DNA of 62,906 nucleotides. Origin: a virus. The notes beneath the pieces are model-generated. The model was not told where the DNA came from, searched no databases, and saw nothing but the letters and a program-made list of their open reading frames with translations. The stretch is from the IMG/VR virus record IMGVR_UViG_3300030101_003361, positions 1 through 62,906 of that record, one strand, 5' to 3'. Below, one piece after another: positions 1 to 61,681 of this stretch; position 1 is the first letter of the stretch; each line of letters begins with the position of its first letter. The position numbers were made by a program, and so were the translations under genes.

Positions 1-414
1 AATATAATTATATAATTAAATACTATATTTTATTAATACTAAATTATTAATAATGCAGTAATAAGTTGAAATCATCGATAATGTGACAATATATATTAAA
101 ATAATTAAAATAAATTATAAAATTAGTTATAAAATTAGCAATAATATATAAATAATGCAATCTATTGATTATCAATGCATTGAAATTGCAATATTATTGG
201 AAATATATGACATTTATTATAAAATATGCAATAAAACTTATAATTTATTGCAATATATGGGGCTATTTATTATTTTATTTTCCTAAGTACTTGTATATCA
301 AATACATATGTGTAATATAAATACCCTATTTTTATAATATAACCGTTAATACCAGTAGGCCCCGGGGTAAAATATAAAGAGGGGCAACCTTTTAACCAAT
401 TAAAACCTATTATT
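1..414. other. non-coding AT-rich leader upstream of the plus-strand arm
   Basis: No open reading frame of convincing length is visible on either strand. The stretch is almost entirely A and T and holds a cluster of short palindromes (164-254). Near the gene it also holds a G/C block: CCCCGGGG at 360-367, and GCCCC (359-363) that can pair with GGGGC (381-385) over a 17-base loop. This is the natural place for promoters of the plus-strand genes starting at 415, and possibly for an origin, but no promoter could be fixed from sequence alone. Confidence 0.6.
164..254. repeat. cluster of short palindromes and GCAAT repeats
   Basis: Perfect palindromes crowd together here: ATTGATTATCAAT (164-176), CAATGCATTG (173-182), and ATTGCAAT twice (185-192 and 247-254). 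The core GCAAT recurs at 138, 157, 188, 228 and 250. Such crowding may mark a protein-binding or origin-like region. It could also arise partly by chance in very AT-rich DNA. Confidence 0.45.
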
Positions 415-48874: not shown

Positions 48875-48895
48875 TATTTTTATTATTTAAATTTT

Positions 48896-49864
48896 TTACC
48901 AGATATCTTCAAAATCTTCTCCTTCGTTAGCTTTTGAGTAATCAGTCGGACGAACAGCAAAGAAATCAGTATGAGTGTGCCCCCCGGTAAGATGGTAGAA
49001 CCAGTCAAGATTGCTCGCTGCAATTTTGTCGTATTCAAAGTAGGTCCCACTGTTTGAGTAACCGAGTTCAACAATTTTTTCGTTGAGACGTTTTCTGATA
49101 AATTGTTTAAGGTCGTATGCACTGAGGTTTTCAATGTCTCCTTGTTCAAACATTTTATCAATGTATCTTTCTTCTGCTTTAAGCATTGTTTTTGCTGCTT
49201 TAATAACGTGTGTATAGCAATCATTTTGTAATCCTTTAATTTCTTGGCACATATGCCTAAATAGTTGACATCCCATTTTAGAATGTAATGACTCATCTCT
49301 TACACTCCATTTCATTTGTTGTCCGATACCCTTAAGTAAATTACGTAACTGAAAAGAATATAAAACAGCAAAGGCAGAATATAAAGAAACCCCTTCCGCA
49401 AAAGCACTAAATACAGCAAGTGACTTGCCAATCCCAATTGGATCAGTGCCACTATAGCTAACAAGATTATCAAACCGTGCAGCTGTTGCAGGTTCGTGTA
49501 AAAACGCTTCAAAATTTTCAAGACCAAGTGTTTCATTTAAATAAGAATATGCTACTGCGTGAATTGTTTCTTGTGAGCCAAACATCATGGCCATTTGTTG
49601 GATTTCATGTTTAGGAAACCACGATACAACTTTTTGGGTCCAATAATCAGAAACCGCACACTCCGTTTGTGCAAATCCCAAAAGTATATTTCCAACCAAG
49701 TTCTTCTCTGCTTTGGTAAGTTTTTCATTCCAATCTTTGACGTCACCTGACATTGGTATCTCTGTGTGAAGCCAAAAAGCTTGCGCTTGTTTAAGCCAAC
49801 CTTCTGTATAATATTCCGGATATTCAAAAGGTTTATAAGGTATTCTTTCATTGAATAGACTCAT
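48896..49864 (-). CDS. nrdB: class I ribonucleotide reductase, beta subunit
   Basis: A 322-residue radical-generating subunit. The metal-site pattern is present: ECAVSDYW with E68, QETIHAVAY with E99, H102 and the probable radical Y106, and VRDESLHSKM for the second E/H pair. It sits directly upstream of nrdA in the same operon. Much of the gene is GC-richer and uses different codons from its neighbours. It supplies deoxynucleotides together with NrdA and ThyA. Confidence 0.95.
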   Translation of the reverse strand: MSLFNERIPYKPFEYPEYYTEGWLKQAQAFWLHTEIPMSGDVKDWNEKLTKAEKNLVGNILLGFAQTECAVSDYWTQKVVSWFPKHEIQQMAMMFGSQETIHAVAYSYLNETLGLENFEAFLHEPATAARFDNLVSYSGTDPIGIGKSLAVFSAFAEGVSLYSAFAVLYSFQLRNLLKGIGQQMKWSVRDESLHSKMGCQLFRHMCQEIKGLQNDCYTHVIKAAKTMLKAEERYIDKMFEQGDIENLSAYDLKQFIRKRLNEKIVELGYSNSGTYFEYDKIAASNLDWFYHLTGGHTHTDFFAVRPTDYSKANEGEDFEDIW

Positions 49865-50054
49865 CTTTTTTCTTTTTCTTATATTGTTCTTTTAATTTAT
49901 CTAATGCTTTATCGTAACCAGGAAGCTTTTTAACTAACTCCATTGTACCAACACTTAAATCTTTTAAATGTGTAAGTTCTTGTACAACTCTATTCATTGC
50001 AGCTCCTATAGTTTCAATTTTATTGCGCATTTCTATTAGCTTAGTTTCCTTCAT
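49848..50054 (-). CDS. small helical hypothetical protein
   Basis: A 68-residue charged, coiled-coil-like protein (KIETIGAAMNRVVQELTHLK) with a Lys-rich end. Its 3' end overlaps nrdB by 17 bases, which couples them. No family is recognised. Small helical proteins at this place could regulate RNR, but that is speculation. Confidence 0.6.
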   Translation of the reverse strand: MKETKLIEMRNKIETIGAAMNRVVQELTHLKDLSVGTMELVKKLPGYDKALDKLKEQYKKKKKDESIQ

Positions 50055-50256
50055 TAAAATATTTATTTAATGTTTTAATTCTATCGTCAGCATCAACTAA
50101 CATTTGTAATGCTTGCTCTGCATTTTTGTAATAGTCATCAGTTGAGTGATCACCAATACCTGCAGCTTTATTGCTTAATAAATCTAAACTAAGCAATGCT
50201 TTTGTTTTATCTGCTTCAGCAGACTTTAATAACATATTATATAATTGTGAGTACAT
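50041..50256 (-). CDS. small helical hypothetical protein
   Basis: A 71-residue helical protein with LLKSAEADKTKALLSLDLLS and a middle Gly/Asp-containing turn. It overlaps both neighbours by 14 to 20 bases. It has no Cys pair or membrane span, and the function is unknown. Confidence 0.6.
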   Translation of the reverse strand: MYSQLYNMLLKSAEADKTKALLSLDLLSNKAAGIGDHSTDDYYKNAEQALQMLVDADDRIKTLNKYFNEGN

Positions 50257-50452
50257 CTTTACTAAGTATTATAGGACTCGCATCCTTATTATTTTTAACT
50301 TCTATATGTGTTTCTTTAATGGTAATAATAGGATCTATTGGTTCCATTATTCTTCTAATAACTTTACCGTATTGATCCCTAATTACTTTCTTTTTAGAAA
50401 ATAATCGTTTGTAATTTTTTAAAACGTATTCTTTTAATTTTTCTTCATTCAT
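50237..50452 (-). CDS. small basic hypothetical protein
   Basis: A 71-residue protein. The N-terminal half is helical and Lys-rich, the C-terminal half beta-like (IITIKETHIEVKNNKDASP). The start overlaps the end of the gene at 50445-50588. No family is recognised. Confidence 0.6.
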   Translation of the reverse strand: MNEEKLKEYVLKNYKRLFSKKKVIRDQYGKVIRRIMEPIDPIITIKETHIEVKNNKDASPIILSKDVLTII

Positions 50453-50588
50453 AATGTACGGTTATACATAATTCTATAAGTGGTAAATAAAATACATGCT
50501 CTATAAAATCTTTCTCAGGATAGCTTCTTACTCCTATAACAATACCTGGATATAAACCTAAACTAACTTCCCATCCTGCTATTTTCAT
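50445..50588 (-). CDS. 47-residue hypothetical protein
   Basis: A short protein starting MKIAGWEVSLGLYPGIVIGV and ending ELCITVHYE. Its stop overlaps the next start (ATGA). It looks like a beta-strand domain and is encoded in phase with the operon's tight spacing. It is below common length cut-offs but plausible. The role is unknown. Confidence 0.55.
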   Translation of the reverse strand: MKIAGWEVSLGLYPGIVIGVRSYPEKDFIEHVFYLPLIELCITVHYE

Positions 50589-50632
50589 TTAAATAGTAAT
50601 TTAACATTTTCATATGGAAAGATATTCTTTCG

Positions 50633-50755
50633 CTATAGTGTTCCTGTAGACTGAACTCCATATTTTCTGTGCAATCTAACAATTTCTCCATATTTAATAA
50701 TTTTATTTTTAAGTAATTTTTTAATTTCTTTTTCTAATAATCTTTTAGTATACAT
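50633..50755 (-). CDS. 40-residue hypothetical protein (start uncertain)
   Basis: A short, basic helical protein starting MYTKRLLEKEIKKLLKNK. I chose the ATG at 50755 because it overlaps the stop of the upstream nuclease gene as TAATG, a junction used many times in this window. A longer version from 50866 (77 residues) is open but would overlap the nuclease gene by 112 bases. The function is unknown. Confidence 0.5.
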   Translation of the reverse strand: MYTKRLLEKEIKKLLKNKIIKYGEIVRLHRKYGVQSTGTL

Positions 50756-51207
50756 TAACCGCGCTTTCTTTTTCTCGATTCTTTGATCAATGCTATTGTC
50801 AAATCCACTTCCTTCTGATTTTGCGGCTTGTAAAGTATCTTTCCAATATTGTTTTTCGTAAGCCATAATTTAAATAATTTCCAGCGTAAAGGAAAAGATT
50901 CGTTTGGTCTTCCTTTACATTCTATTATATAATCTTTACCAATAAAATCAGGTGTATATTTTATACCTAATATTTTTTTAGTACCTCTATTTATATATTC
51001 TCCTTTACCATTAGCTTGCTTTTCATAACTTGTATTAGGAAATTGAAATGAAGTTATTAATTCAAATGTTTCATTTTCATATCCTTCAAACAGTTTACTT
51101 TTTTTTAAAGCTATGTAAGTGTATCTTTCAAGCCCTGATGCAAATTTAATACCATCATAAGATATTTTTTTAGCTTGTACAGGGCCTCTCTTCTTACTTC
51201 TTTTCAT
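50755..51207 (-). CDS. PD-(D/E)XK nuclease, T7 endonuclease I / DUF1064-like
   Basis: A 150-residue nuclease. KFASGLERYTYIAL (E27), YTPDFIGKDYIIECKGR (D87, E96, K98) form the E...D-x8-E-x-K active site of this family. FPLRWKLFKLW follows as usual. The family resolves branched DNA or breaks host DNA, so roles in recombination or packaging cleanup fit. It is linked by a 4-base overlap to the upstream gene. Confidence 0.82.
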   Translation of the reverse strand: MKRSKKRGPVQAKKISYDGIKFASGLERYTYIALKKSKLFEGYENETFELITSFQFPNTSYEKQANGKGEYINRGTKKILGIKYTPDFIGKDYIIECKGRPNESFPLRWKLFKLWLTKNNIGKILYKPQNQKEVDLTIALIKESRKRKRG

Positions 51208-51455
51208 GTAGTACTCTGTGTCCAGCTAGATTCAGGATATTTACTTATTTTTTTATCCTCTTCAATTAATACAGCTCTAATCTTTTCAATATAGTTAGCA
51301 GCATCCATAAGCTCTTCTTGTAAATGATTAAGCCAAGTATCAAGTGATTGTTCGTCTTTATCTAAACCAACACCATACTTTTTATAACCTGCTTCAGCAC
51401 GCTTTTGAATTTTATCAATTACTCTATTAATTATTTTATCGTTTACTTTACTCAT
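51204..51455 (-). CDS. dATP/dGTP diphosphohydrolase-like small protein
   Basis: An 83-residue protein with RAEAGYKKYGVGLDKDEQS and WLNHLQEELMDAANYIEKI. The EELMDAANY helix and YGVGLDRD-type turn match the dGTP diphosphohydrolase N-terminal/MazG-like family. The likely role is hydrolysis of dNTPs or adjusting nucleotide pools. It is flanked by a nuclease and a MazG fusion. The domain is short, so activity may require oligomers. Confidence 0.7.
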   Translation of the reverse strand: MSKVNDKIINRVIDKIQKRAEAGYKKYGVGLDKDEQSLDTWLNHLQEELMDAANYIEKIRAVLIEEDKKISKYPESSWTQSTT

Positions 51456-52209
51456 CTTTTACAAATGTTCCGTTAACCATTTTACCTGTTCTTTTTGATA
51501 TTACATTAAATGATTCATCAATGCAATCTTCAATTCTAAATCCTTCAAGCTCTGAAAGATTAGCAAGTACTATTACCATATCACCAATAGCATCTTTTAT
51601 TTCAGCTTTATCTTGTTTTAATAATGCTTGTGCAAGTTCTCCTGCTTCCTCCATTAATTTAACATACTGAGTCTTACTATCGCCTTTTTGATAAAGGTTA
51701 CGATCTTTAGCCCAGTCTCTTATCTTATTAAATGCTGATGTACTATTAGGCTTAAATGCTTTAGTAAAAGCTTTATTATAAATATAACAAGTACCAGGAC
51801 CAAACTGACTTGCATGTACATTAGTTAATATCCAATCAATATAATCTTGATTATTTAATTCAAATACACCTTCAGGTAACTCTAATGTAATACCTCTTAA
51901 GTATTCAGCATTAATATCGCTAGGTGATATTTTAAATGTTGTTGTTGCTTGTGACGAACTGTGTTTATTCATTTTTTTACGAAATAAGTCTTTATATAAT
52001 TTAATATCTGTTTTATATTTAAGTTCTTTTTGCAGATTTCTTTCAGCTTCAGAAGCTTCTACTATATCATCTGTTTCATATAGTATATCATATTCACCAG
52101 GTTTATAACCTTGTTCTTCTTCAACACGTTTTTTAACATTAGTTGTGCAACCAATCTTAACTCCGGGTATGTGGTATATTTTATATTTACCAGTTTTTAA
52201 TTCTATCAT
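51448..52209 (-). CDS. GIY-YIG-like / MazG-like fusion protein
   Basis: A 253-residue protein with two dissimilar parts. The N-terminal part (about 8-75: KYKIYHIPGVKIGCT, VKKRVEEEQG, ASEAERNLQ) has the layout of a GIY-YIG nuclease, with KIY and KIG in place of the named tripeptides. The C-terminal part (about 160-230: KLMEEAGELAQALLK and EIKDAIGDMVIVLANL) is a MazG-type nucleotide pyrophosphohydrolase with the E-E-x2-E and E-x2-D helices. The order and fusion are seen directly. Nuclease activity is uncertain because key residues differ. It lies next to thyA. Confidence 0.75.
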   Translation of the reverse strand: MIELKTGKYKIYHIPGVKIGCTTNVKKRVEEEQGYKPGEYDILYETDDIVEASEAERNLQKELKYKTDIKLYKDLFRKKMNKHSSSQATTTFKISPSDINAEYLRGITLELPEGVFELNNQDYIDWILTNVHASQFGPGTCYIYNKAFTKAFKPNSTSAFNKIRDWAKDRNLYQKGDSKTQYVKLMEEAGELAQALLKQDKAEIKDAIGDMVIVLANLSELEGFRIEDCIDESFNVISKRTGKMVNGTFVKDE

Positions 52210-53030
52210 GTATTTAATTTTGCTTTAATTGGTGGATGTGGATTATAATTTTTTATTTTAATCATATCAGATGTTGGTATTACTATATACTCTCTTACTC
52301 CTTGTTCAATAGTAAGTCCGAGAGAAATATCAACATTAGGTAATTTCCTGAAATCATTATCCAGTTGTTGTTTAGCTTGTTCGATATGATTATTATACAA
52401 ATGACAATCGCCAAGGGAAGCAATAAGTTGCCCTTCTTTATAGTTATTGCCTTTAGCCAATAGCTTGAGCAATAAACCATACATTGCAATATCATAAGGT
52501 AAGCCAAGAAACACATCAACTGATCTTTGTTGCCACATAAGATTAAGTTTGCCATCATTTATATATACTTGAAAGCAATAGTGGCAAGGTGGCAACACCA
52601 TATCGTCCAAATCATTGGGATTCCATAAGCTTGCCATAATGCGCCGCGAGCTTGGTTCTTCTTTAATTTGGATGAGTATTCTTTTAAGCTGATCAATACC
52701 ATTGAAGTCCCTAAGCTGCTTGCCGTAAACAGGACCAAGCGTGCTATCAGTTCTACCTGATCGATTATAATCATCGTTCCAGTAATTAACACCATTAGAC
52801 TGAAGGTAACGCAAATCAGTGCGGCCTTGTAATATCCATAATAATTCCGTAACTGCATGTTTAAAATATATTTTTTTAGTTGTTAATAGCGGAAAACCTA
52901 AAGCCATATCGTGCTTTATTATTCTACCAAATACTGATTTAGTACCAGTACCTGTTCTATCTTCCTTATCTTTACCGTTATATAATACACCAGCTAATAA
53001 GCTTCTATACTCGTCTTGTATGTTTATCAT
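52206..53030 (-). CDS. thyA: thymidylate synthase
   Basis: A 274-residue enzyme converting dUMP to dTMP with methylene-tetrahydrofolate. It has EDRTGTGTKSVFG near the start, SSRRIMASLWNP and the catalytic Cys in PPCHYCFQVYI. I start at 53030 because the family begins directly there; an upstream in-frame start at 53111 would add 27 residues overlapping the neighbour. The bases around 52560-52860 are GC-richer than the ends. It complements RNR in making DNA precursors. Confidence 0.92.
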   Translation of the reverse strand: MINIQDEYRSLLAGVLYNGKDKEDRTGTGTKSVFGRIIKHDMALGFPLLTTKKIYFKHAVTELLWILQGRTDLRYLQSNGVNYWNDDYNRSGRTDSTLGPVYGKQLRDFNGIDQLKRILIQIKEEPSSRRIMASLWNPNDLDDMVLPPCHYCFQVYINDGKLNLMWQQRSVDVFLGLPYDIAMYGLLLKLLAKGNNYKEGQLIASLGDCHLYNNHIEQAKQQLDNDFRKLPNVDISLGLTIEQGVREYIVIPTSDMIKIKNYNPHPPIKAKLNT

Positions 53031-53298
53031 AGTAGTATTTACACATTTCATAATATTCAGACCAAATAGAATATTTATCATATACATTTGGTGCATAATA
53101 TATTTTTTCACCTTTTTTATATGGACCTAAAGCAATTGCTATTTTCCATTTACCTGGTTCATTATTAATACCATAAGGTGATATTCTTATATTATTATCT
53201 ATACAATATTTTTGCCATTTCATTTGTTCATAAGATGCATTATGTGGTGGCATTTTATATGCATCTTTCTTTTTAGAACCTGTTAACCCACTTCCCAT
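53005..53298 (-). CDS. hypothetical protein between helicase and thyA
   Basis: A 97-residue protein starting MGSGLTGSKKKDAYKMPPHN, with WQKYCIDNNIRISPYGI and WKIAIALGPYKKGEKIYYAP, rich in Tyr and Lys. It overlaps primase-helicase (16 bases) and thyA (26 bases). The aromatic-basic composition might suit nucleic-acid binding, but no family is recognised. Confidence 0.65.
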   Translation of the reverse strand: MGSGLTGSKKKDAYKMPPHNASYEQMKWQKYCIDNNIRISPYGINNEPGKWKIAIALGPYKKGEKIYYAPNVYDKYSIWSEYYEMCKYYYDKHTRRV

Positions 53299-54992
53299 GG
53301 CATAATATCATTTGATACATCAAATACAGGTACATAGTTACCGCTAATATGATCCCATTTAAAATGAGCTTCAGCTTGATTTTCACCTAAGTTTTGAAAC
53401 TTTACTTTAAGCACCTTAACTTTAACGGTTTTTTTATTATAATCGCGATGAACAAGTAAGCCATGATATGAAGCATCATACCATTCCCCACCACCTTTAA
53501 TATTATACATATTTGGTTCATCAATTGTACCATCTTCTTTTTTATACATTTTAGTTGGGTGTGCAACTACAATAACAAGTACATCATATTTTTTAGCAAA
53601 AGCTTCTATACGAGTTAAGTATTCCATAGTTGCATCAGGTATACTCATATTAGCAGATCCATTCATTTTAATTTTATTATACGGATCTATAACTAAACAT
53701 TTAATACCTTTTCTTTTAACGAGCTGCGCTCCTTTATTTAATACAGAATCTAAATCATATCTTTCATTTTCAATGAAAAAGAAATTATCATTCACAACAT
53801 TTGCAACTTCATTCCATTTATCTGAACCTATATCATTTTTATTTGGCATCCAATTACCAATCTTACGCATTAGCTTATGTGCATGTAAGAATGTAGGTTT
53901 ATTTTCTGGAGATGCAAATGCTGTTTTCCAACCATACTTTTGTTGATAACCAACAATCATTCTATCTACAAAATCAGATTTACCTGAACTCGGTACACCT
54001 GTTACTGTAATAAATTGGCCTGTATAAGTTGAAAATATATTATCAAAATTATCAAGACCAATTTGGTAGCCTGGTTTAAATCCTTCATGAATAAATTCCT
54101 GCAGCTCATCATCAATATCATTTAACGTTATTACGTTTTCAATAGGAACAGGACTAGCGTTTTTAATAACATCATTGAGCTTAGCGCTGCTGTTGTGTAA
54201 CAAAAAATCATTAGCGTCTTTGTAAATTCCGAAATCACACGTAAAACACGTTTCAGCTCCGAGTCTGCGAATAAGCTCTTGCTTAAGGTTTTCACCCGCC
54301 TCATCTTGATCAACCGCAATAATGATCTTTTCTTTTCCTTCGAGATAATCAATGCAGCTGTCCAAGTAATCAAGGTTATTATTATTAATTGTAGCTCCGT
54401 TTGGTACACTGATGACAGATTTGATACCCACTTCAACAAAAGATAAAGCATCAATCTCTCCTTCCACAATAACCACATAGTCGTGCCCAATAGTAGAGTC
54501 AATATTATAAAAGATTTTTTCGGCTCCTTTAACCAGTTTAAAATTTTTCTTACCATCTCTATACTTTATGTTAATTAATTCATTGTTAATAAAGTAATTG
54601 AATTGTATTGTATTCTCTTCTTTACCAGTTTGAGGCATCCATTCTTTACCTTCAGTAATTTTCATTTTTACTAAAGTGTTATTTGAAATACCTCTGCTCT
54701 CAAACCACTTAATTACTTTGTCACTTAAAAGTGGATTGGCTATTGTTTTAGGCTTAGTATAAACTTTATCGTTACCACCTTTTCTTTTGAACGTATGTAA
54801 TTGAAATACTTCATTACAATTCATACATGTACCAAGACCTCTATCCCAATCGTACATAGCACATTTAGCTTTACGATTTTGTGGTTTACGATTAGCAGAG
54901 CAAAGAGGGCATATACCCTCTCGCTTGCCAACCTCTAATTTATATTGATTGAATGTATCAATCTGAAAACCATTAATCTCGGTTTTGTTCAT
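53283..54992 (-). CDS. primase-helicase (T7 gp4/Twinkle type)
   Basis: A 569-residue fusion of primase and replicative helicase. The N-terminal zinc finger has C28, C31, C56 and C59. The toprim motif VIVEGEIDALSF contains E177, and a RecA-like helicase domain carries Walker A GVPSSGKSD (K338). The family unwinds DNA and lays primers at the fork. It is linked to the downstream SSB-like gene by an overlapping stop/start. The zinc-finger-to-toprim part is locally GC-richer (about 54130-54500). Confidence 0.92.
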   Translation of the reverse strand: MNKTEINGFQIDTFNQYKLEVGKREGICPLCSANRKPQNRKAKCAMYDWDRGLGTCMNCNEVFQLHTFKRKGGNDKVYTKPKTIANPLLSDKVIKWFESRGISNNTLVKMKITEGKEWMPQTGKEENTIQFNYFINNELINIKYRDGKKNFKLVKGAEKIFYNIDSTIGHDYVVIVEGEIDALSFVEVGIKSVISVPNGATINNNNLDYLDSCIDYLEGKEKIIIAVDQDEAGENLKQELIRRLGAETCFTCDFGIYKDANDFLLHNSSAKLNDVIKNASPVPIENVITLNDIDDELQEFIHEGFKPGYQIGLDNFDNIFSTYTGQFITVTGVPSSGKSDFVDRMIVGYQQKYGWKTAFASPENKPTFLHAHKLMRKIGNWMPNKNDIGSDKWNEVANVVNDNFFFIENERYDLDSVLNKGAQLVKRKGIKCLVIDPYNKIKMNGSANMSIPDATMEYLTRIEAFAKKYDVLVIVVAHPTKMYKKEDGTIDEPNMYNIKGGGEWYDASYHGLLVHRDYNKKTVKVKVLKVKFQNLGENQAEAHFKWDHISGNYVPVFDVSNDIMPWEVG

Positions 54993-55312
54993 TAGAATGG
55001 TAAATCTGGTTCGTTAGACTTAGACTCAAAAGTATTTGTAGCAGGTGCCGGTGATGCAACATTTTTATTAGTTGTATCAACATTTTGGCCGTCTGTCCAT
55101 ATGACTTTAACGTTACCTAAATATTCTTTTGGTATACTTGCATCTCTTTCATCTTTAGTTTGTTCAGTCATTATATAGCCTGAATCACCATATTCACCAA
55201 CCTCGTTATTTATAACGACGGTAACTGGATAGTATTTACCCTTCTTGCCTTCATAAATTTTATCTTTATTTATTTTAGATAAATTTATATTACCAGATAT
55301 AATACTTGCCAT
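54992..55312 (-). CDS. single-stranded DNA-binding protein (SSB-like)
   Basis: A 106-residue protein. The body has beta-strand stretches (GKKGKYYPVTVVINNEV, LGNVKVIWTDG), followed by a disordered Ala/Pro/Asn stretch and an acidic tip EPDLPF. The acidic DLPF end is the known hallmark of SSB proteins that recruit partners. It stands next to primase-helicase and the recombination genes, consistent with coating ssDNA. OB-fold detail is inferred. Confidence 0.7.
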   Translation of the reverse strand: MASIISGNINLSKINKDKIYEGKKGKYYPVTVVINNEVGEYGDSGYIMTEQTKDERDASIPKEYLGNVKVIWTDGQNVDTTNKNVASPAPATNTFESKSNEPDLPF

Positions 55313-55313
55313 A

Positions 55314-55481
55314 TTAATATGTAGATATTTGATTAAACATTCTTCTAAGCTGTGTTTTACTAGCTCCAGTAGTTCTTCTTATATTATCTACAGCTTTTAC
55401 ATGAGATTGATTAGTATAAAAATTATTCATACTAGTCGTGACTCCTGTTACATCACAAGTTCTTTTTCTAGTTCTTGCCAT
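55314..55481 (-). CDS. 55-residue basic hypothetical protein
   Basis: A small basic protein, MARTRKRTCDVTGVTTSM at the start, with an HVKAVDNIRRTTGASKTQLR helix pair later. The stop lies one base before the SSB-like gene's ATG. The helices could form a DNA-binding motif. No family is recognised; it fills the gap between the SSB-like gene and the nuclease. Confidence 0.6.
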   Translation of the reverse strand: MARTRKRTCDVTGVTTSMNNFYTNQSHVKAVDNIRRTTGASKTQLRRMFNQISTY

Positions 55482-55490
55482 AAAATTAAA

Positions 55491-56222
55491 TTAAAGTGTT
55501 TTAGTTAAAAAATATTGGTTAAGGTCAACACCACTGTCAACAAAAAATTCGTTGTAAGCTTGTACTGCCTTAGCCACTTTATTCTGCCCTGATTGTAAAA
55601 AATCAGCACTACAATCAAATAGGCCTAATTGATGAGTTGATTTATCTATTACAATAAATACTAACTCATATCCAAACATTTTACTATAAATATATGCTTG
55701 GCTATCATAGTTAAACTTATAAGCTGAACTATGAAAAGAAGATATATTACTTGTAGTTTTTAAATCAACTAATAACTGTTGACTATGATTTACAATATCT
55801 GCTTTACCTTTCCATAGTAAAGATTCTAATTCAACTATTCCGGGTTGTTCATATTCAACCTTTCCTTCTTGTATTAATTCTTTAAACAAATCAATACTTA
55901 AAACTTTATCACGCATTAACGCAATTTCATCTGCTTCTTTTTCTAATAAACAAATATCACCATCAGATAGTTCTTTATATAGTTTTGTATTTCTGCTGGT
56001 TGTTGGTATAATTTTATACTTATCTAATTTATTAGGTTCTAATATACATGTGTGAAAATATCCTCCAATAACTAATGCTGTACTGGGTTTTGTTTCTTTT
56101 TTAAAGTTAATAGGATTATTAATTAAAGCGTTTATATCACTGTTTGATAAAAACTGTTTACCAAAATCGCCATAATAATGCTCGTCATCTTTTAACTTTT
56201 TAAGTATTTCTTTTTTATTCAC
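55491..56222 (-). CDS. PD-(D/E)XK exonuclease, RecE/Cas4-like
   Basis: A 243-residue nuclease starting with a GTG. GGYFH (H57), GKADIV (D142) and LLVDLKTT (D153, K155) make the H...D...D-x-K site of RecB-type exonucleases. YNYDSQAYIYS-like helix sequence (FNYDSQAYIYS) follows, as in the family. It overlaps the ERF gene by eight bases, which together form a classical two-gene recombination system: the exonuclease makes 3' tails and ERF anneals them. Confidence 0.87.
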   Translation of the reverse strand: MNKKEILKKLKDDEHYYGDFGKQFLSNSDINALINNPINFKKETKPSTALVIGGYFHTCILEPNKLDKYKIIPTTSRNTKLYKELSDGDICLLEKEADEIALMRDKVLSIDLFKELIQEGKVEYEQPGIVELESLLWKGKADIVNHSQQLLVDLKTTSNISSFHSSAYKFNYDSQAYIYSKMFGYELVFIVIDKSTHQLGLFDCSADFLQSGQNKVAKAVQAYNEFFVDSGVDLNQYFLTKTL

Positions 56223-56781
56223 TCAATTGTACTCTAACATCGTCAGAGATTGTATATTTATCTTCAAGTGTTTTCATTAATCCACCATTTGCTAAAAACT
56301 TTTTAGCTTGAGCTAAATTATTAGAATCAATAGAAGGCTTTTCAGAAGCTTTAATTTTATTCTTTAATGTTTGTACCTTATTAGAATAATTATGTTGATT
56401 AGTAGCATCAGAATCAGCTGTATCGTCAATTAACAGAAGATTACCAAGTGCATATTTTTTACCATACGATGATGCACTACCAAATCTTTGTGGCATTTGT
56501 TGGCCTTTTGCGGTTAAATCAACACCTACTATTGCTGTAGCTAAAATTTTATCACCAGATTTATTATCTATAATTCTAGCAGCTGAATGTATTATAGGAA
56601 ATTCACCAGTAGTTAAATTTTCTTCAACTGTAAAATGTACATCATACTTATCATTAAATGGTTTTAATGCTTCAAGTATGTCTTCAGCTGACCTGAAGTT
56701 ATATTTGCCAAAAGAATTATATCTTGATTTTTTGGCTTTAAATTCAAATTGTATTTTACTTAATTTTTCTCTTATATTCAT
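56215..56781 (-). CDS. ERF-family single-strand annealing protein
   Basis: A 188-residue recombinase starting at ATG 56781 (three codons inside a longer frame whose TTG is less likely). FGKYNFRSAEDILEALKP and QRFGSASSYGKKYALGNLLL, then IDDTADSDA match ERF annealing proteins. The C-terminal end is helical and charged. It lies beside its exonuclease. A bipartite promoter-like motif is found at 56871-56905, giving it a leader of about 80 bases. Confidence 0.85.
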   Translation of the reverse strand: MNIREKLSKIQFEFKAKKSRYNSFGKYNFRSAEDILEALKPFNDKYDVHFTVEENLTTGEFPIIHSAARIIDNKSGDKILATAIVGVDLTAKGQQMPQRFGSASSYGKKYALGNLLLIDDTADSDATNQHNYSNKVQTLKNKIKASEKPSIDSNNLAQAKKFLANGGLMKTLEDKYTISDDVRVQLSE

Positions 56782-56870
56782 TTGATTCAATTATTTTATA
56801 ACCGGTATATAATCCATTTTTGTAATAAGTTATAATACCATCACCTATTACATAATTAGTTTCGCTATTT

Positions 56871-56905
56871 ATATTATCACGAGCTTTCATAGTTTGTAAC
56901 GTATT
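56871..56905 (-). promoter_or_regulatory. bipartite promoter-like motif, copy 1
   Basis: On the minus strand AATACGTTACAAA (56905-56893) is followed after 14 bases by GATAATAT (56878-56871). Taken as TTACAA and TAATAT, the boxes are 17 bases apart, as for a sigma70-type promoter. Two further copies lie in this arm only. It would start a transcript near 56864 that reads the ERF annealing gene and the genes after it. Confidence 0.65.
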
Positions 56906-57241
56906 TTATGAAATTAAATCATAAATAATATTATTCTTTTTAAATAATCTTTTATGTTTTATATCATCTAATTTACCAAAAACACAAAACGAACTTTTGT
57001 CAACTTCAATGTCTTTGTATATATTCTTTTCTTTATTAACACCTTTACCTGATAAACGGTTAGATTTAATATTTAAATATTTAGACCCTGAAATAGCTTT
57101 TACATGGCTAACTGTATAATTAGGGTTTTTAAAATGTAGGTTCTGGTCGTTATGCATAGACTCAGAATTATCTTGTTTTATATATTGCATCTCGTCTATT
57201 GTAGACGGTAAAAATTGGTATTTAGTTTTAAATTTATTCAT
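56906..57241 (-). CDS. hypothetical protein
   Basis: A 111-residue protein of mixed charge containing MHNDQNLHFKNPNYTVSHVK and a C-terminal part with CVFGKLDDIKHKRLFKKN. It ends immediately before promoter-like motif copy 1. No membrane span, Cys pair or enzyme motif is visible. The function is unknown. Confidence 0.6.
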   Translation of the reverse strand: MNKFKTKYQFLPSTIDEMQYIKQDNSESMHNDQNLHFKNPNYTVSHVKAISGSKYLNIKSNRLSGKGVNKEKNIYKDIEVDKSSFCVFGKLDDIKHKRLFKKNNIIYDLIS

Positions 57242-57285
57242 AAGAGTACATAATTAATATAGTACAAAATTTGTATTATGAGACG

Positions 57286-58071
57286 TTAATTTTGATAAAT
57301 CTTTAAATGTTTTTCAGCATATAGATGTACCATTGAAGAACTTTTTATGCCGTGTATAGCAACGAAGTGTGCTAACTCTTTTAAAGCCAGCTCGTTAGAT
57401 TTTAATTTAGCTAATATACGTTGCTTTTGCTTTCTAACATTTTCAACACGTATGCCAAAATAATTAGCAATATCAATCATCTTTTTAGGCTTAGAGTAAA
57501 TATCATCTAATCCAAAAAACATTTTTAACATTAAATGTTGCTTAGGTAAATATTTTTTAGACCATCCATCTAAATACTCACCTAATTTATCATAACTATA
57601 TTCATAAATCTCTTCTTCAACCATATTAATAATAGAACTATCAAACCAATGTGGAAATAGTTTAGTTATATACCCAAAACCACCGGTTATTTTCTTTTGT
57701 TCTTCATTACTCCATATACCTTTAATAGGTCTTTTAGTACCATCTGCATTAACTTTTATTCTATCTTTAAGAATACCAGTAATACTTTTTTTAAGATATT
57801 TAGAAATAGTTTTTTGCTTTTCAACTTTATCTTTAATATCATTAACTATATTCCATTTTATATTACGCCATGATATAAGTAAAGCTAAATAACCTTCTTG
57901 AGTTAAATCATTTAAATCAACAACGCCTACAGCTCCATAATCTTTAGAAAAACTATTAGCTATATTTATTGCCATTTTATAATATTCAAATGGAATATCA
58001 GTATTAGATTTTTTAACTTTTTCAAGTGTTGCAATATTTAACGAATATATTTTTTTATTAAAATTTTTCAT
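57286..58071 (-). CDS. sigma-factor-like protein
   Basis: A 261-residue protein. Residues 51-70 (VDLNDLTQEGYLALLISWRN) match the core-binding part of sigma70 region 2. A helix-turn-helix of region-4 type lies at about 195-230 (PKKMIDIANYFGIRVENVRK followed by QKQRILAKL). The middle about 70-180 is less like sigma. It could direct host RNA polymerase to phage promoters, and the bipartite motif in this arm is the obvious candidate target. The sigma fold is from pattern only. Confidence 0.7.
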   Translation of the reverse strand: MKNFNKKIYSLNIATLEKVKKSNTDIPFEYYKMAINIANSFSKDYGAVGVVDLNDLTQEGYLALLISWRNIKWNIVNDIKDKVEKQKTISKYLKKSITGILKDRIKVNADGTKRPIKGIWSNEEQKKITGGFGYITKLFPHWFDSSIINMVEEEIYEYSYDKLGEYLDGWSKKYLPKQHLMLKMFFGLDDIYSKPKKMIDIANYFGIRVENVRKQKQRILAKLKSNELALKELAHFVAIHGIKSSSMVHLYAEKHLKIYQN

Positions 58072-58169
58072 CTACGTTTTTTCTTATTGCTTTTTCTTTC
58101 AGCTTTAATTTTATCTGCTATTTTAAAAGCATTAGTTTTTATAAAATGTGTATATATTTTTTTACTCAT
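58068..58169 (-). CDS. 33-residue basic peptide
   Basis: A short Lys/Arg-rich peptide, MSKKIYTHFIKTNAFKIADK then a polybasic tail. Its stop overlaps the start of the sigma-like gene (ATGA), so it may serve translational coupling. The reading frame is short; support is from spacing on both sides. Confidence 0.45.
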   Translation of the reverse strand: MSKKIYTHFIKTNAFKIADKIKAERKSNKKKRR

Positions 58170-58170
58170 A

Positions 58171-58329
58171 TCAATCAATTTTATATATCCAAGTTAATCC
58201 TTTATCATTAAACCATACCCAATCTCGGTTATGTTTATCAAATCCTTTTGGTATCTCACCGATTTTGTAAGGTTTAAATTTAATTTTTATACCTATTTTA
58301 GGTTTTATTAATGTTCTTGTTTTTTTCAT
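58171..58329 (-). CDS. 52-residue hypothetical protein
   Basis: A short basic protein (MKKTRTLIKPKIGIKIKFKP) ending with WVWFNDKGLTWIYKID, which looks like a small beta domain with aromatic residues. It starts inside the stop of the previous gene (ATGA) and ends one base before the next ATG. Neighbour spacing supports it. Confidence 0.55.
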   Translation of the reverse strand: MKKTRTLIKPKIGIKIKFKPYKIGEIPKGFDKHNRDWVWFNDKGLTWIYKID

Positions 58330-58484
58330 ATTACGTCTTTAAAATTTATTTCATCGTACCATTCCCATTCACAATTAGGATAACTATCAATAATAGAATT
58401 AATAGTTGCTTCCTGTACTTTATGAGAAACGTCAGTATTAATTATATAAGTTTTATTATTTATTATTAGCTTACCTAGACTCAT
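58326..58484 (-). CDS. 52-residue hypothetical protein
   Basis: A short acidic protein, MSLGKLIINNKTYIINTDVS at the start and CEWEWYDEINFKDVI at the end. It overlaps the previous gene by 14 bases and the next by four. Regular overlap with its neighbours makes it likely to be translated. The function is unknown. Confidence 0.55.
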   Translation of the reverse strand: MSLGKLIINNKTYIINTDVSHKVQEATINSIIDSYPNCEWEWYDEINFKDVI

Positions 58485-58722
58485 CTCTAAAATGTTTTTG
58501 ATATAACAAAAATATAATTATTTTTAATACTGTACCAAATAAAATGCCAACTGCAATTGGTAATTTTATTTGTACTATAAATGCAATCGTACCGACCGCA
58601 AGTCCATCAAACATAAACATAATACCCATGAGTATCAGCACGTTACGTTTAAATGTATCACCAAGAATGCATACTAAATATGCAGTTAGTGCAAAGAAAG
58701 ATGCTATAGATATACTACTCAT
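58471..58722 (-). CDS. small three-span membrane protein
   Basis: An 83-residue protein with three hydrophobic segments (about 5-23, 29-51, 55-76) and a charged C-terminus. I place the start at ATG 58722, overlapping the ligase stop, rather than at the in-frame TTG 58788. It may alter the host membrane; no family is recognised. Confidence 0.6.
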   Translation of the reverse strand: MSSISIASFFALTAYLVCILGDTFKRNVLILMGIMFMFDGLAVGTIAFIVQIKLPIAVGILFGTVLKIIIFLLYQKHFRDESR

Positions 58723-59587
58723 AGTTTCTAATTGTTTTAGCTCTTGGAAATCTGTAAGCTCCAGCTGGAGTTCTTTCAAAGAATTCAAATGTTAATAGCT
58801 TACCAATATATTTTTTTCTAGCTTGCCACATTTGTTTTCTGTTTTCAATAGTTAGTGTAGGCCAAGGTATTTCAACTTCTCTACCGTCTTTATCAACAGC
58901 TAGCCATTTACCAAGACCATTAGCAAACTTACCTTTACCTTCAACATAACCTGTAATAGTTGCTTCAGTATCCGACCAGTCTTTTATTTTCATTAGATTA
59001 TTACTTCGTTTAGTTTCATAAGGAGTATTGTATCTAAGTATTGAACCTTCAAAACCTAAATCTTTAAACTCATTGTGGTAGTCTTTTATTTCTGTATCTG
59101 AAGTAACTTCATACGTAGGAACTGTTTTAATTGAACGCCACTTGTAATATTCTTTATATCCTGTAATTCTTTCACTTCTTTTTTGAAATAAAATAGTATT
59201 ACTTAAACTTTGATGTGTATTAATATTTGAATCAGGAATAAACTGGTCATAGCAATGAAACTGTAAATACATTGCAGATTCAAATTTATCAGCTTGCGTT
59301 GGCTTTTGCTTTTTAACAAGTGATATAATTTTGTTAAAATCATTTTTAAATTTATGATTGTACAACTCGCCGTCAAGTATTCTATCAGGATAATCTTTAA
59401 AGAAAGATTGTAATGTAGTTGTAATATGTTTACAATTTTTAAATGGTTTATGGTTTCTGCTAAATGCACCGTCTTTAGTTATATAGCATCTAACACCATC
59501 TAGTTTTGGCTGTATAAAGTTTTTAATGTCTAACCGTCTATTCATAGGGTCGAACTCTTTAGCCAGCATTACGTTAAAGTTTGTCAT
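58715..59587 (-). CDS. ATP-dependent DNA ligase
   Basis: A 290-residue ligase sealing nicks. Motif I is QPKLDGVRCY with the adenylated K28, then LDGELY, EGSILRY and MKIKDW as later nucleotidyltransferase motifs. The C-terminal OB domain carries GYVEGKGKFANGLG and TFEFFERTPAGAYRFPRA. I use ATG 59587; an upstream ATG at 59617 would add ten residues. It helps replication and ERF recombination. Confidence 0.9.
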   Translation of the reverse strand: MTNFNVMLAKEFDPMNRRLDIKNFIQPKLDGVRCYITKDGAFSRNHKPFKNCKHITTTLQSFFKDYPDRILDGELYNHKFKNDFNKIISLVKKQKPTQADKFESAMYLQFHCYDQFIPDSNINTHQSLSNTILFQKRSERITGYKEYYKWRSIKTVPTYEVTSDTEIKDYHNEFKDLGFEGSILRYNTPYETKRSNNLMKIKDWSDTEATITGYVEGKGKFANGLGKWLAVDKDGREVEIPWPTLTIENRKQMWQARKKYIGKLLTFEFFERTPAGAYRFPRAKTIRNYE

Positions 59588-59867
59588 ATTCTTTTTTAAT
59601 TCTTTCATATATTTCATTTAATTCTATTACTAATTCATATTTTTCGTCAGCTAATAATTTAGCTCGTTTAGCTTCTAAATCTATTAGTTGAGCTTTTAGC
59701 ATATCTTTTTTAGAAGGATGTCTAATATTTCCAAAACCATCAACCTCTGCTTCAAAGAATTCTTTAGGAGTCATAGGTTTAAAGTCTTGTTGTATTCTAT
59801 TGTCAAACTCTTCTAAAATTTTATCTGCTACTAATTGTGCTAATTTTTCTAAATCTTTACGAGTCAT
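59574..59867 (-). CDS. helical hypothetical protein
   Basis: A 97-residue charged helical protein (LEKLAQLVADKILEEFDNRI, and AQLIDLEAKRAKLLADEKYE near the end) with a coiled-coil look. Its stop overlaps the ligase start by 14 bases. No family is recognised. Confidence 0.6.
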   Translation of the reverse strand: MTRKDLEKLAQLVADKILEEFDNRIQQDFKPMTPKEFFEAEVDGFGNIRHPSKKDMLKAQLIDLEAKRAKLLADEKYELVIELNEIYERIKKEYDKL

Positions 59868-60093
59868 GATTTACAATTATAGTATACATATATTTTAATA
59901 ATTTTTGTTTTCTAGTTAAGCATTCAACTTGCTTAGCAATTTCTTCTTTAGTAGGCCCAAAAAATGAATCAGGAGTCATATTCTCCCAGTCTTTTATCTT
60001 TTCATCTAAAGGACCTTGCCTACTCATAATGTATATAAGTGCTTGACCTTTCAAATCGTCGTGGTCAAGCTTTAAGTGTTTTTCTCTTAACAT
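59857..60093 (-). CDS. small hypothetical protein
   Basis: A 78-residue protein containing LKLDHDDLKGQALIYIMSRQ and FGPTKEEIAKQVECLTRKQK, probably helical. It overlaps its downstream neighbour by 11 bases. The function is unknown. Confidence 0.6.
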   Translation of the reverse strand: MLREKHLKLDHDDLKGQALIYIMSRQGPLDEKIKDWENMTPDSFFGPTKEEIAKQVECLTRKQKLLKYMYTIIVNHDS

Positions 60094-60094
60094 A

Positions 60095-60427
60095 TTAATC
60101 TTCTTTTTGTTCTAGCCATTCAATTACTTCTTGTTCAGGCAGATAAGATTCAGCATCTATATATATTCTTACTTCACTGCCATAGCCTAAGTCGTGGCAT
60201 GTTTCTTCTATTCTATCCATAATAGTATCAAATTGAGGTTCATAATAATATACATCATTTTCCCAATCAATATTTCTAGCGTCGTTTGTTAATACATGTA
60301 ATGTATAATCATCAGCAGTATACCATTCAGACATTTCTAAATCTGGGTTACTCAAATCGTCTTTAATTACAACGATGCTATCATACTTATTGCTTAAGTA
60401 TTTTTCTAATTTATTTATATAATCCAT
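60095..60427 (-). CDS. acidic hypothetical protein
   Basis: A 110-residue protein, strongly acidic (many Asp and Glu). I use the ATG at 60427; the longer in-frame extension would run into the tRNA-Gly gene. It has DDLSNPDLEMSEWYTADDYT and TIMDRIEETCHDLGYGSEV. Such charge is typical of DNA-mimic antirestriction or inhibitor proteins, but this is a guess from composition. It is the first protein gene after the tRNA cluster. Confidence 0.6.
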   Translation of the reverse strand: MDYINKLEKYLSNKYDSIVVIKDDLSNPDLEMSEWYTADDYTLHVLTNDARNIDWENDVYYYEPQFDTIMDRIEETCHDLGYGSEVRIYIDAESYLPEQEVIEWLEQKED

Positions 60428-60447
60428 TTTATTTAATTTAAAGTTAG

Positions 60448-60520
60448 AGCGAAAAGTGGGAATCGAACCCACAACCTTTAGATTGGAAATCTAATGCTCT
60501 GCCAGTTGAGCTATTTTCGC
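60448..60520 (-). tRNA. tRNA-Gly (anticodon UCC)
   Basis: A complete cloverleaf: acceptor GCGAAAA with TTTTCGC, D arm GCTC...GAGC, anticodon stem TTAGA/TCTAA with loop TTTCCAA (anticodon TCC), and T arm GTGGG TTCGATT CCCAC. The discriminator base is U, as normal for bacterial tRNA-Gly. CCA is not encoded. It would read GGA codons, which are common in this AT-rich genome. Confidence 0.95.
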
Positions 60521-60524
60521 ATAA

Positions 60525-60624
60525 GGAGGCGGATGAAACTAGGAATGACAGAGATGCACTCAGCGCCTTACACTCTTAATCTGTTTATATCATCTTTCTA
60601 CCTTTCGGCTTCCTGACTACCTCC
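60525..60624 (-). ncRNA. structured RNA candidate, possibly a degenerate long-variable-arm tRNA
   Basis: On the minus strand GGAGG (60624-60620) and CCTCC (60529-60525) can close a 100-base structure between two true tRNAs. Inside are CCGAAAGG, which forms a GAAA-capped hairpin, an anticodon-like loop ATTAAGA (UAA, Leu), and a variable-arm-like hairpin GCGC/GTGC. D and T arms do not form by normal rules, so it is not a normal tRNA-Leu. It may be a decayed tRNA or another structured RNA. Confidence 0.4.
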
Positions 60625-60627
60625 AAT

Positions 60628-60694
60628 ATGAAAACGACGGTTTGATTGCATTGGTATTTTAAATTGTACCGCGTTCAGGTATATTCGTTTTCAT
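60628..60694 (-). ncRNA. 67-base element closed by a 10-bp perfect inverted repeat
   Basis: ATGAAAACGA (60628-60637) and TCGTTTTCAT (60685-60694) pair perfectly around 47 bases that contain a further small hairpin (TACC/GGTA with a seven-base loop). The element lies exactly between the structured candidate and tRNA-Met. Its size is near that of a tRNA with short arms, but no standard anticodon or T arm could be drawn. A degenerate or minimal tRNA-like RNA is possible. Confidence 0.4.
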
Positions 60695-60697
60695 TAG

Positions 60698-60771
60698 GTG
60701 CGCGGGGTGGATTCGAACCACCGACCTCGAGTTTATGAGACTCGCGAGCTGTCCCGCTGCTCTACCGCGCA
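60698..60771 (-). tRNA. tRNA-Met (anticodon CAU)
   Basis: A cloverleaf with acceptor TGCGCGG/CCGCGCA, D stem GAGC/GCTC, anticodon stem CGAGT/ACTCG with loop CTCATAA (CAT), variable AGGTCG and T arm GGTGG TTCGAAT CCACC. CCA is not encoded. Several parts recall initiator tRNA, but the usual three G-C pairs under the anticodon and the 1-72 mismatch are missing. Whether it is elongator or initiator stays open. Confidence 0.9.
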
Positions 60772-60861
60772 ATATTATATCGTTTCCAATATTCTATTTC
60801 AAACAATTCAATTTGTTCTTTTGACATTTTTAATAGAACATTTTTTTTATTTCTTCTTTTT

Positions 60862-61098
60862 TTAATCAACGTACTCTTCATCTATTTCATCTTTTAACCA
60901 TTCTTTTTTAGAATCTAATTCCATAATTTTGATTGTCATATAGTCAATTACATTTTGAACTGAAAACTTTTTAGATTTCATAAGTTTAGGATATACTTTT
61001 TCAATAGCATATTCAACTGAGAATGTATCTATATGTTGTTCAACATTATTTTTTAAATCTATTATATCTGCATAATTTTTTAAGTCTATTTTATTCAT
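60862..61098 (-). CDS. helical hypothetical protein
   Basis: A 78-residue charged protein (IDLKNYADIIDLKNNVEQHI, later KFSVQNVIDYMTIKIMELDS) with several helices. Bipartite promoter-like motif copy 2 lies directly upstream, so it is probably the first gene after that promoter and lies ahead of the tRNA cluster. The function is unknown. Confidence 0.6.
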   Translation of the reverse strand: MNKIDLKNYADIIDLKNNVEQHIDTFSVEYAIEKVYPKLMKSKKFSVQNVIDYMTIKIMELDSKKEWLKDEIDEEYVD

Positions 61099-61115
61099 AT
61101 TTATTTAATTTTATT

Positions 61116-61149
61116 ATATTATCGTTTTAATTTTAATTTGTAACGTATT
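61116..61149 (-). promoter_or_regulatory. bipartite promoter-like motif, copy 2
   Basis: Minus strand: AATACGTTACAAA (61149-61137), 13-base gap, GATAATAT (61123-61116). It lies in an intergenic gap and its second box ends 17 bases before the ATG at 61098, so a transcript would have a very short leader. The following genes include the tRNA cluster. Confidence 0.7.
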
Positions 61150-61161
61150 ATGTATAGCAAA

Positions 61162-61251
61162 TTATATTATATATAATTTTAGTACACAATAAATATATGT
61201 TATAATGTATATAACAAAAAACATATTACCTATTATTCTATCATCTATCAT
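61162..61251 (-). CDS. 29-residue membrane peptide
   Basis: A tiny protein, MIDDRIIGNMFFVIYIITYI then a short tail, with one hydrophobic span. Its start overlaps the stop of the zinc-ribbon gene (ATGA), and it ends just before promoter-like copy 2, so it would be the last gene of that unit. It is short; translation is only likely, not sure. Confidence 0.4.
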   Translation of the reverse strand: MIDDRIIGNMFFVIYIITYIYCVLKLYII

Positions 61252-61442
61252 TTTCTTCTCCAAGATTTATGTACTAAATTACTTAATTCTTGCGATACGA
61301 TTTGAATACTATTTCCAGTTTTATGTTCTATTATAGGTACATAACTAACTTGCTGAACGTCAGAGCATTGCACACATTTATTATAACCTAACTCTATTCT
61401 AACTGGGTGTAGTACTGAACCACATCTACAAAATTTATTCAT
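61248..61442 (-). CDS. zinc-ribbon protein
   Basis: A 64-residue protein with C5-x-C7 and C23-x2-C26, a four-cysteine zinc ribbon, followed by a helical tail (GNSIQIVSQELSNLVHKSW). Such ribbons bind nucleic acid or proteins such as RNA polymerase. It lies one base from the next gene. No closer family is recognised. Confidence 0.65.
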   Translation of the reverse strand: MNKFCRCGSVLHPVRIELGYNKCVQCSDVQQVSYVPIIEHKTGNSIQIVSQELSNLVHKSWRRK

Positions 61443-61443
61443 A

Positions 61444-61566
61444 TTATTTTAAATTTAATTTAAAGTAAATATTTTTTATGACCGGACCATAATTTTTATA
61501 GTCATCACTATTAAGTGCATTTTGCAATATATCGGTCAATAATTCTTTTTCTACTTTATTAAACAT
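61444..61566 (-). CDS. 40-residue hypothetical protein
   Basis: A short helical protein, MFNKVEKELLTDILQNALNS, ending one base before the zinc-ribbon gene. Promoter-like motif copy 3 lies about 70 bases upstream. The compact spacing and the promoter support it as the first gene of this unit. The function is unknown. Confidence 0.5.
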   Translation of the reverse strand: MFNKVEKELLTDILQNALNSDDYKNYGPVIKNIYFKLNLK

Positions 61567-61637
61567 TTTTTAATTTATTTATTTCATTTATATCTTCAAC
61601 TTCTAATTCGTTGAACATATCTATTATTTCTTTACTA

Positions 61638-61672
61638 ATATTATCGTTGCTAATATAAGTTTGTAACGTATT
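61638..61672 (-). promoter_or_regulatory. bipartite promoter-like motif, copy 3
   Basis: Minus strand: AATACGTTACAAA (61672-61660), 14-base gap, GATAATAT (61645-61638). It has the same two boxes and spacing as the copies at 56871 and 61116. Transcription would start near 61630 and read the gene at 61444-61566 and then the zinc-ribbon gene. Confidence 0.7.
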
Positions 61673-61681
61673 TTTCATAAT

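Follow-up and report, generated by a model that had tools for sequence, protein, structure and literature searches.

Phages that encode a sigma factor with its own private promoters are already known. In phiEco32 and Salmonella phage 7-11, a phage sigma factor serves phage-specific middle and late promoters (PMC4331800). Here we analyzed a stretch of 62,906 nt (the window) of the IMG/VR virus contig IMGVR_UViG_3300030101_003361, the whole record of which has 64,469 bases; the window carries three copies of a two-box, promoter-like motif and a gene for a sigma-70-family protein. It resembles phiEco32 and 7-11 as a probable lytic podovirus with a diverged sigma factor and with strict putative phage promoters upstream of the sigma gene, and also in the proposed scheme, in which host promoters start the expression of the sigma gene and phage promoters sustain it. 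However, the sigma factor of phiEco32 and 7-11 also serves structural genes, whereas the motif here was confined to the early/replication arm, and an anti-sigma factor is known in those phages but none was identified here. The primary-sigma promoters of Bacteroidota (TTG/TAnnTTTG; Flavobacterium psychrophilum SM1-3, PMC9723704) likewise have two boxes near genes and A-rich leaders. The sites in the window differed from them in having no TTG at -33, no TAnnTTTG at -7 and far less degenerate boxes.

The terminase was 63% identical to that of MW202828, 45% to those of Flavobacterium elemo phages, and 37–38% to those of Cellulophaga phages phi38:1 and phi18:3 (named isolates 37–46%). These relatives, together with the gene content, suggest a podovirus infecting marine Flavobacteriia. 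The terminase, portal and capsid genes were homologous to those of Elemovirus, Pervagoviridae (phi38:1) and Pachyviridae (phi18:3) phages of Flavobacteriia, but these phages had no sigma gene and neither of the motif versions A and B described below. In phi14:2/crAss-like phages, early transcription is carried out by a virion RNA polymerase. They are also phages of marine Bacteroidota with a related muzzle domain, and the muzzle-like domain found here matched crAss_MUZ_C. In phi14:2, neither the motif (first 50 kb) nor a sigma gene was found. A consistent DxDxD RNA polymerase was not found in the genomes analyzed here, in which only scattered, non-orthologous DxDxD strings occurred in large open reading frames (ORFs). 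This indicated that the host polymerase is probably used, and a virion RNA polymerase of the crAss-like type was rejected as the reader of the motif. The host probably uses a Bacteroidota-type primary sigma.

We infer, with a probability of roughly three in four, that the two-box sites are phage-specific promoters serving the early/replication arm and that they are read by the host RNA polymerase core together with the phage sigma factor. The original prediction described three same-orientation copies of the pattern AATACGTTACAAA-N13/14-GATAATAT. The window contained exactly three matches, each on the minus strand (56871–56905, 61116–61149, and 61638–61672), and the mean count over 100 dinucleotide shuffles of the window was 0. 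The spacing of 16–17 bp between TTACAA and TAATAT was also correct, but the conserved motif turned out to be longer than first described, namely AAWRTACGTTACAAA-N12-GTGATAATATAAnTG (version A). No further exact copy was present in the window, as had been noted, or in the whole record, but a fourth, partly degenerate copy (AAAATACGTTACAAA-12-TCGATAATAATATAA; 27 bits with the weight matrix) was located outside the window at positions 63548–63589 of the record. Each copy does lie before genes, but the sites are not simply intergenic: two of them overlap short frames.

The GTGAT sequence was complete at site 1 and was replaced by ACGAT at sites 2 and 3 (sites numbered as in Table 1). The spacer of site 2 was one base short, and the orthologous site in contig G009 (52538–52579) had a spacer of 12. 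Orthologs of site 3 were found in G009, G027, and many other contigs. At the loci orthologous to site 1 in G003, G004, G005, G007, and G023, box A was cleanly missing between conserved flanks, along with part of box B.

In IMG/VR, 28 stretches contained the exact pattern, each with at most five copies. Version A was derived from 54 unique sites, in which the boxes were near-invariant and the spacer was free in sequence with its length fixed at 12 bp. A matrix built from these sites was used for the proposed scan of the genome and related phages, and the motif was widespread and stranded. Whole-contig scans detected one to nine sites per genome in ~30 viral contigs, nearly all on the same strand within a contig, within a few kilobases, and clustered in the early arm. 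All listed version-A sites but one scored above 25 bits, compared with a null maximum of 8 bits in five-fold shuffles of 19 contigs. Box B ended a median of 26 nt before the next start codon, vs. 89 nt in controls, and this distance was 60 nt or less in 79% vs. 35%. In G006 and G008, nearly every site carried CACAAC or CACTAC instead of CGTTAC, and AGTACG occurred in G001. Such concerted variants within genomes point to a trans-acting reader. Together with the boxes being kept or lost as a unit between conserved flanks, they suggested selection on a DNA element read in trans.

Among 84,980 prokaryote genomes, the exact 20-base form existed in only three contigs of metagenome-assembled genomes (MAGs), at least one of which was clearly phage. 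Contigs L099 and L100 of the MAG "Rickettsiales MED657" contained the phage motif, and L100 also had a phage sigma gene; they are probably phage contigs that were binned into this MAG. A blastn search of the motif against named phages gave chance matches only.

The sigma-like protein of the original prediction was recognized as a sigma-70 homolog. It matched the phage sigma family phrog_351 (E 3e-8) and TIGR02937 (E 9e-11; 41.7 bits, just under the cut-off of 42.9), and its homolog in G039 was above the TIGR02937 cut-off with 63.9 bits. Pfam sigma region 2 was detected in 11 of 18 homologs and region 4 in nine of 18 (E up to 1). The family profile matched region 4 of SigA in the PDB (E 2e-9). 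Nearly all of the 50 best Foldseek matches shown were sigma factors, none of them with E <0.001. Judging from the profile matches and the predicted fold, the protein is a diverged sigma-70 factor. Homologs in version-A contigs were either close (50–69% identity) or distant (25–29%).

The motif and the sigma gene co-occurred almost completely in relatives, which the original prediction had named as support for a partnership. All near-complete version-A contigs carried a sigma homolog except G028, which was rejected as a counter-example because its contig ends cut the locus, on one side at the motif cluster and on the other at Erf. Contigs with sigma but no motif (G007 and G033–G038) were uninformative: they are fragments with ~0.9–3.1 kb upstream of sigma, and the nearest site in whole relatives was ~1.4–3.7 kb from sigma. 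No sigma gene was found in two further contigs with CACAAC sites, which are fragments of 20 and 39 kb. Seven named relatives contained neither version A nor version B sites, and this sigma was not found in them (one weak partial match, E 7e-4). In the phylogenetic profile, sigma was among the few families present in all motif genomes and missing from three motif-less relatives. It was the sole such family with a recognized promoter-binding domain.

The most distant sigma homolog, in G039, led to version B, ACAAAnTAAATACGR-N9-GATAATATAAnTG, with eight copies in that contig. Its -10 block was identical to that of version A, and its upstream box was rearranged, with AATACG 11 bp nearer to the -10. 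Version B was present in at least 119 further stretches, with variants within genomes such as AACACG in G068 and AATACA in G064. A sigma-70 protein was detected in 32 of the 41 version-B contigs tested (the nine others are 48–56 kb) and in 27/27 of those of at least 58 kb; the sigma gene shared the strand of the motif sites in 34/34 version-B contigs. Three contigs (G047, G069, and G082) each held two sigma genes, and G082, which has 22 motif sites in 129.5 kb, may represent two genomes joined together.

Contig G085, which was chosen by its terminase, contained sigma and matched neither version. It served as a forward test, in which a further motif version was predicted for a sigma-bearing contig and then searched for. 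A third version, TTCGAA..TTAATACGA-N9-GATAATATA, with AATACGA in the upstream box, was found in about six copies on the strand of sigma and upstream of it. Box A differed strongly between the three versions, and box B was constant.

In the CACAAC clade (G006, G008, G032, and G040b), the position equivalent to R586 of sigma70 was Ala, and it was Asn, Ser, or Thr in the other type-1 sigmas. Version-B sigmas mostly had the helix YVR[VI]S[QE][LI]K[KR], alongside the rearranged -35 box and the kept -10 box. G056 and G068, both with AACACG boxes, had a common KRDA helix variant. The box change accompanied the helix change in the CACAAC clade and in version B vs. version A, but not in type 1 vs. type 2. 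From these comparisons, the motif variants seem to follow the sigma recognition helix in part. We tentatively propose, at slightly under even odds, that a widespread group of uncultured marine Bacteroidota podoviruses expresses its early and replication genes through a private sigma/promoter code with a constant -10. In this code, the -35 module would change its make-up as region 4 diverges (TACGTTACAAA; ACAAACTAAATACGA, where AATACG lies 11 bp closer to the -10; TTCGAA..AATACGA), so that a natural series of related specificities would result.

In the proposed mechanism, box A (TACGTTACAAA) would occupy the -35 position and box B (GTGATAATATAA) would be an extended -10. The first transcripts, and some sigma, would come from a single-copy promoter, host-type or other, at the start of the minus arm. 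Polymerase loaded with this sigma would then fire the repeated two-box promoters. Several sites precede the sigma gene and share its strand, so that a positive loop could arise, and site 1, just after sigma, may drive the recombination and replication genes (Erf/exonuclease-like/primase) that follow it.

Several observations weigh against the phage sigma factor as the reader of the motif. Most sites lie upstream of sigma, and the loop therefore needs a different promoter to start it. A clear TAnnTTTG element was found at few arm heads, and host-type TAnnTTTG was not enriched upstream of the sites in general (6/89 vs. 4%). The co-occurrence among related phages is partly due to shared ancestry. 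The AlphaFold model of the window sigma was of modest confidence (pLDDT 68). The correlation between CACAAC and the helix came from one clade, in which G040b retained one canonical site. The main caution is that type-1 and type-2 sigmas were only 25–29% identical and differed in the recognition helix, yet they shared version A, which means that either the two types recognize the same boxes or the reader is something else; this weakens a simple one-to-one pairing of sigma and motif. The early block was 68–100% identical between the window and G009, G027, G035, and G036, which carry the other sigma type, and near-identical sites occurred wherever this block was held. By this comparison, the early block was swapped between sigma backgrounds without a change of the motif.

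Across 47132–60472, the early block and RNR of the window were near-identical to those of these type-2 phages, and its sigma, p111, and structural genes were of type 1. The window genome thus looks mosaic. The argument that the sigma type tracks the structural module and hence must drive late genes lost strength, since the exchange may have involved no more than the early block.

The same motif with two very different sigma types, and its survival of the early-block exchange, would also fit an early promoter read by host RNA polymerase with a host sigma, the phage sigma then serving other (late) promoters. The late arm indeed has its own conserved single-copy element that differs by sigma type, and the first reading of early genes needs something already in the cell. 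However, the six sigma motifs of F. psychrophilum (TAnnTTTG variants, TAnnTTGY, sigma-54 -24/-12, and an extracytoplasmic function type with CGT in the -10) did not fit the sites (PMC9723704), in line with the original view that the motif is unlike the usual Bacteroidota promoter. Relatives that infect Flavobacterium or Cellulophaga without a phage sigma were also without the motif, its exact form was confined to three MAG contigs among the prokaryote genomes, and the boxes were far stricter than is usual for primary-sigma promoters. We consider a host sigma an unlikely reader. That box A is the operator of a non-sigma phage activator or repressor, with box B as the -10 for the host polymerase, seems quite improbable: box A has no palindromic form and, as expected with a sigma factor, stands at a fixed distance from box B. 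No other universal family with a recognizable DNA-binding domain was found, although several small universal families have no assigned function. Such an operator would agree with the diversity of box A next to a constant box B, and the sigma-less relative MW202828 has many copies of a different, palindromic element in its early arm.

Site 3 lies in a 39-aa frame and the site 1 spacer contains an ATG, so a coding origin of the repeats had to be excluded. At site 3 and in relatives the frame reads MKNTLQ..DNIS, site 1 reads NTLQTMKARDNINS, and the shared peptide would be N-T-L-Q-...-D-N-I. However, most sites of the relatives were outside this frame context and preceded start codons, the spacers varied in sequence but not in length, and the codons of the frame at site 3 in G006 and G008 followed the DNA variant of the genome (MKSTQQ) and not the peptide. 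The coding reading was rejected on the frame context and the G006/G008 variant, and we regard as highly implausible both this reading and one in which the repeats are dispersed elements other than promoters, for example origin or packaging repeats.

No description of the consensus, of the phage group, or of a rebuilt -35 with a constant -10 was found in the open-access papers searched. If recognition by the phage sigma is true, it would supply the transcription logic of a large ocean-phage group without a recognized RNA polymerase of its own, whose presumed hosts have an unusual primary sigma. It would also provide a sequence handle by which early/middle genes could be predicted in metagenomic contigs, as well as natural data on the co-evolution of region 4 and the -35 box. 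Bacteroidota genetics would gain candidate private promoters. The recurring pairing of motif and sigma across a large, mostly uncultured group of ocean phages suggests a private code that steers host transcription.

Table 1. Motif sites, genes and other elements in the window.
Feature	Position	Strand	Description
Site 1	56866..56907	-	AAAATACGTTACAAA-ctatgaaagctc-GTGATAATATAAATA; 45.6 bits (null maximum 8 bits); directly follows sigma and one small ORF, precedes Erf/PDDEXK/primase/TS/RNR replication genes
Site 2	61111..61151	-	ATAATACGTTACAAA-N11-ACGATAATATAATAA; 28.8 bits; closely precedes the ATG of ORF 60862-61098
Site 3	61633..61674	-	AAAATACGTTACAAA-N12-ACGATAATATTAGTA; 35.2 bits; overlaps a short reading frame
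Short 39-aa frame	61559..61678	-	MKNTLQTYISNDNISKEIIDMFNELEVEDINEINKLKNV, beginning MKNTLQ; its start contains site 3
44-aa ORF	56756..56890	-	ATG inside the site 1 spacer; conserved in nine genomes
Phage sigma-70-family protein	57286..58071	-	261 aa; region 2 at ~residues 28-114, region 4 at ~160-226
111-aa ORF (p111)	56906..57241	-	Between sigma and site 1; found only alongside type-1 sigma
Genes after site 1	53283..56790	-	Erf-like annealing protein 56215-56790, PDDEXK-like 55491-56222, 106-aa ORF, primase/helicase 53283-54992
Genes upstream of sigma	58715..60472	-	ATP-dependent DNA ligase 58715-59617 and small ORFs; early block compared with G009/G027/G035/G036
tRNA-Gly and tRNA-Met genes	60447-60520 and 60697-60771	-	Early arm
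Candidate late-arm promoter	276..332	+	TTTTCCTAAGTACTTG...ACATATGTGTAATATAAATACCC; single copy; conserved in type-1 genomes, different in type-2

A version-A site was absent from the head of the late arm, where the different single-copy element of Table 1 was found, and another conserved element preceded the first early site. These two elements may be, respectively, the late promoter and a starter read by the host. An Rfam search of the region gave nothing above threshold beyond the two tRNAs. In G010 (L050/L051) and G011 (L052), a conserved, structured-looking stretch (CTTAATGGACACGTT.TGTTA.GGCTGC...GATACCACCTAGGAAGTGGTTGAG...) was located before the first late ORF; it had no Rfam match in L051 and L052, the G010 copy being possibly incompletely covered. 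In MW202828.1 (43745–55154; L126/L127), more than 15 perfect palindromes GTGTCGTTAACGACAC were found, many of them just before start codons; they resemble a repeated operator or promoter element of another kind. The divergent region between the early and late arms (e.g., G005 48057–48500; G008 15750–16190) was an AT-rich hub crowded with repeated short words such as ATATGTGACAAT/ATTGTCATATG, which are possible origin or regulator sites.

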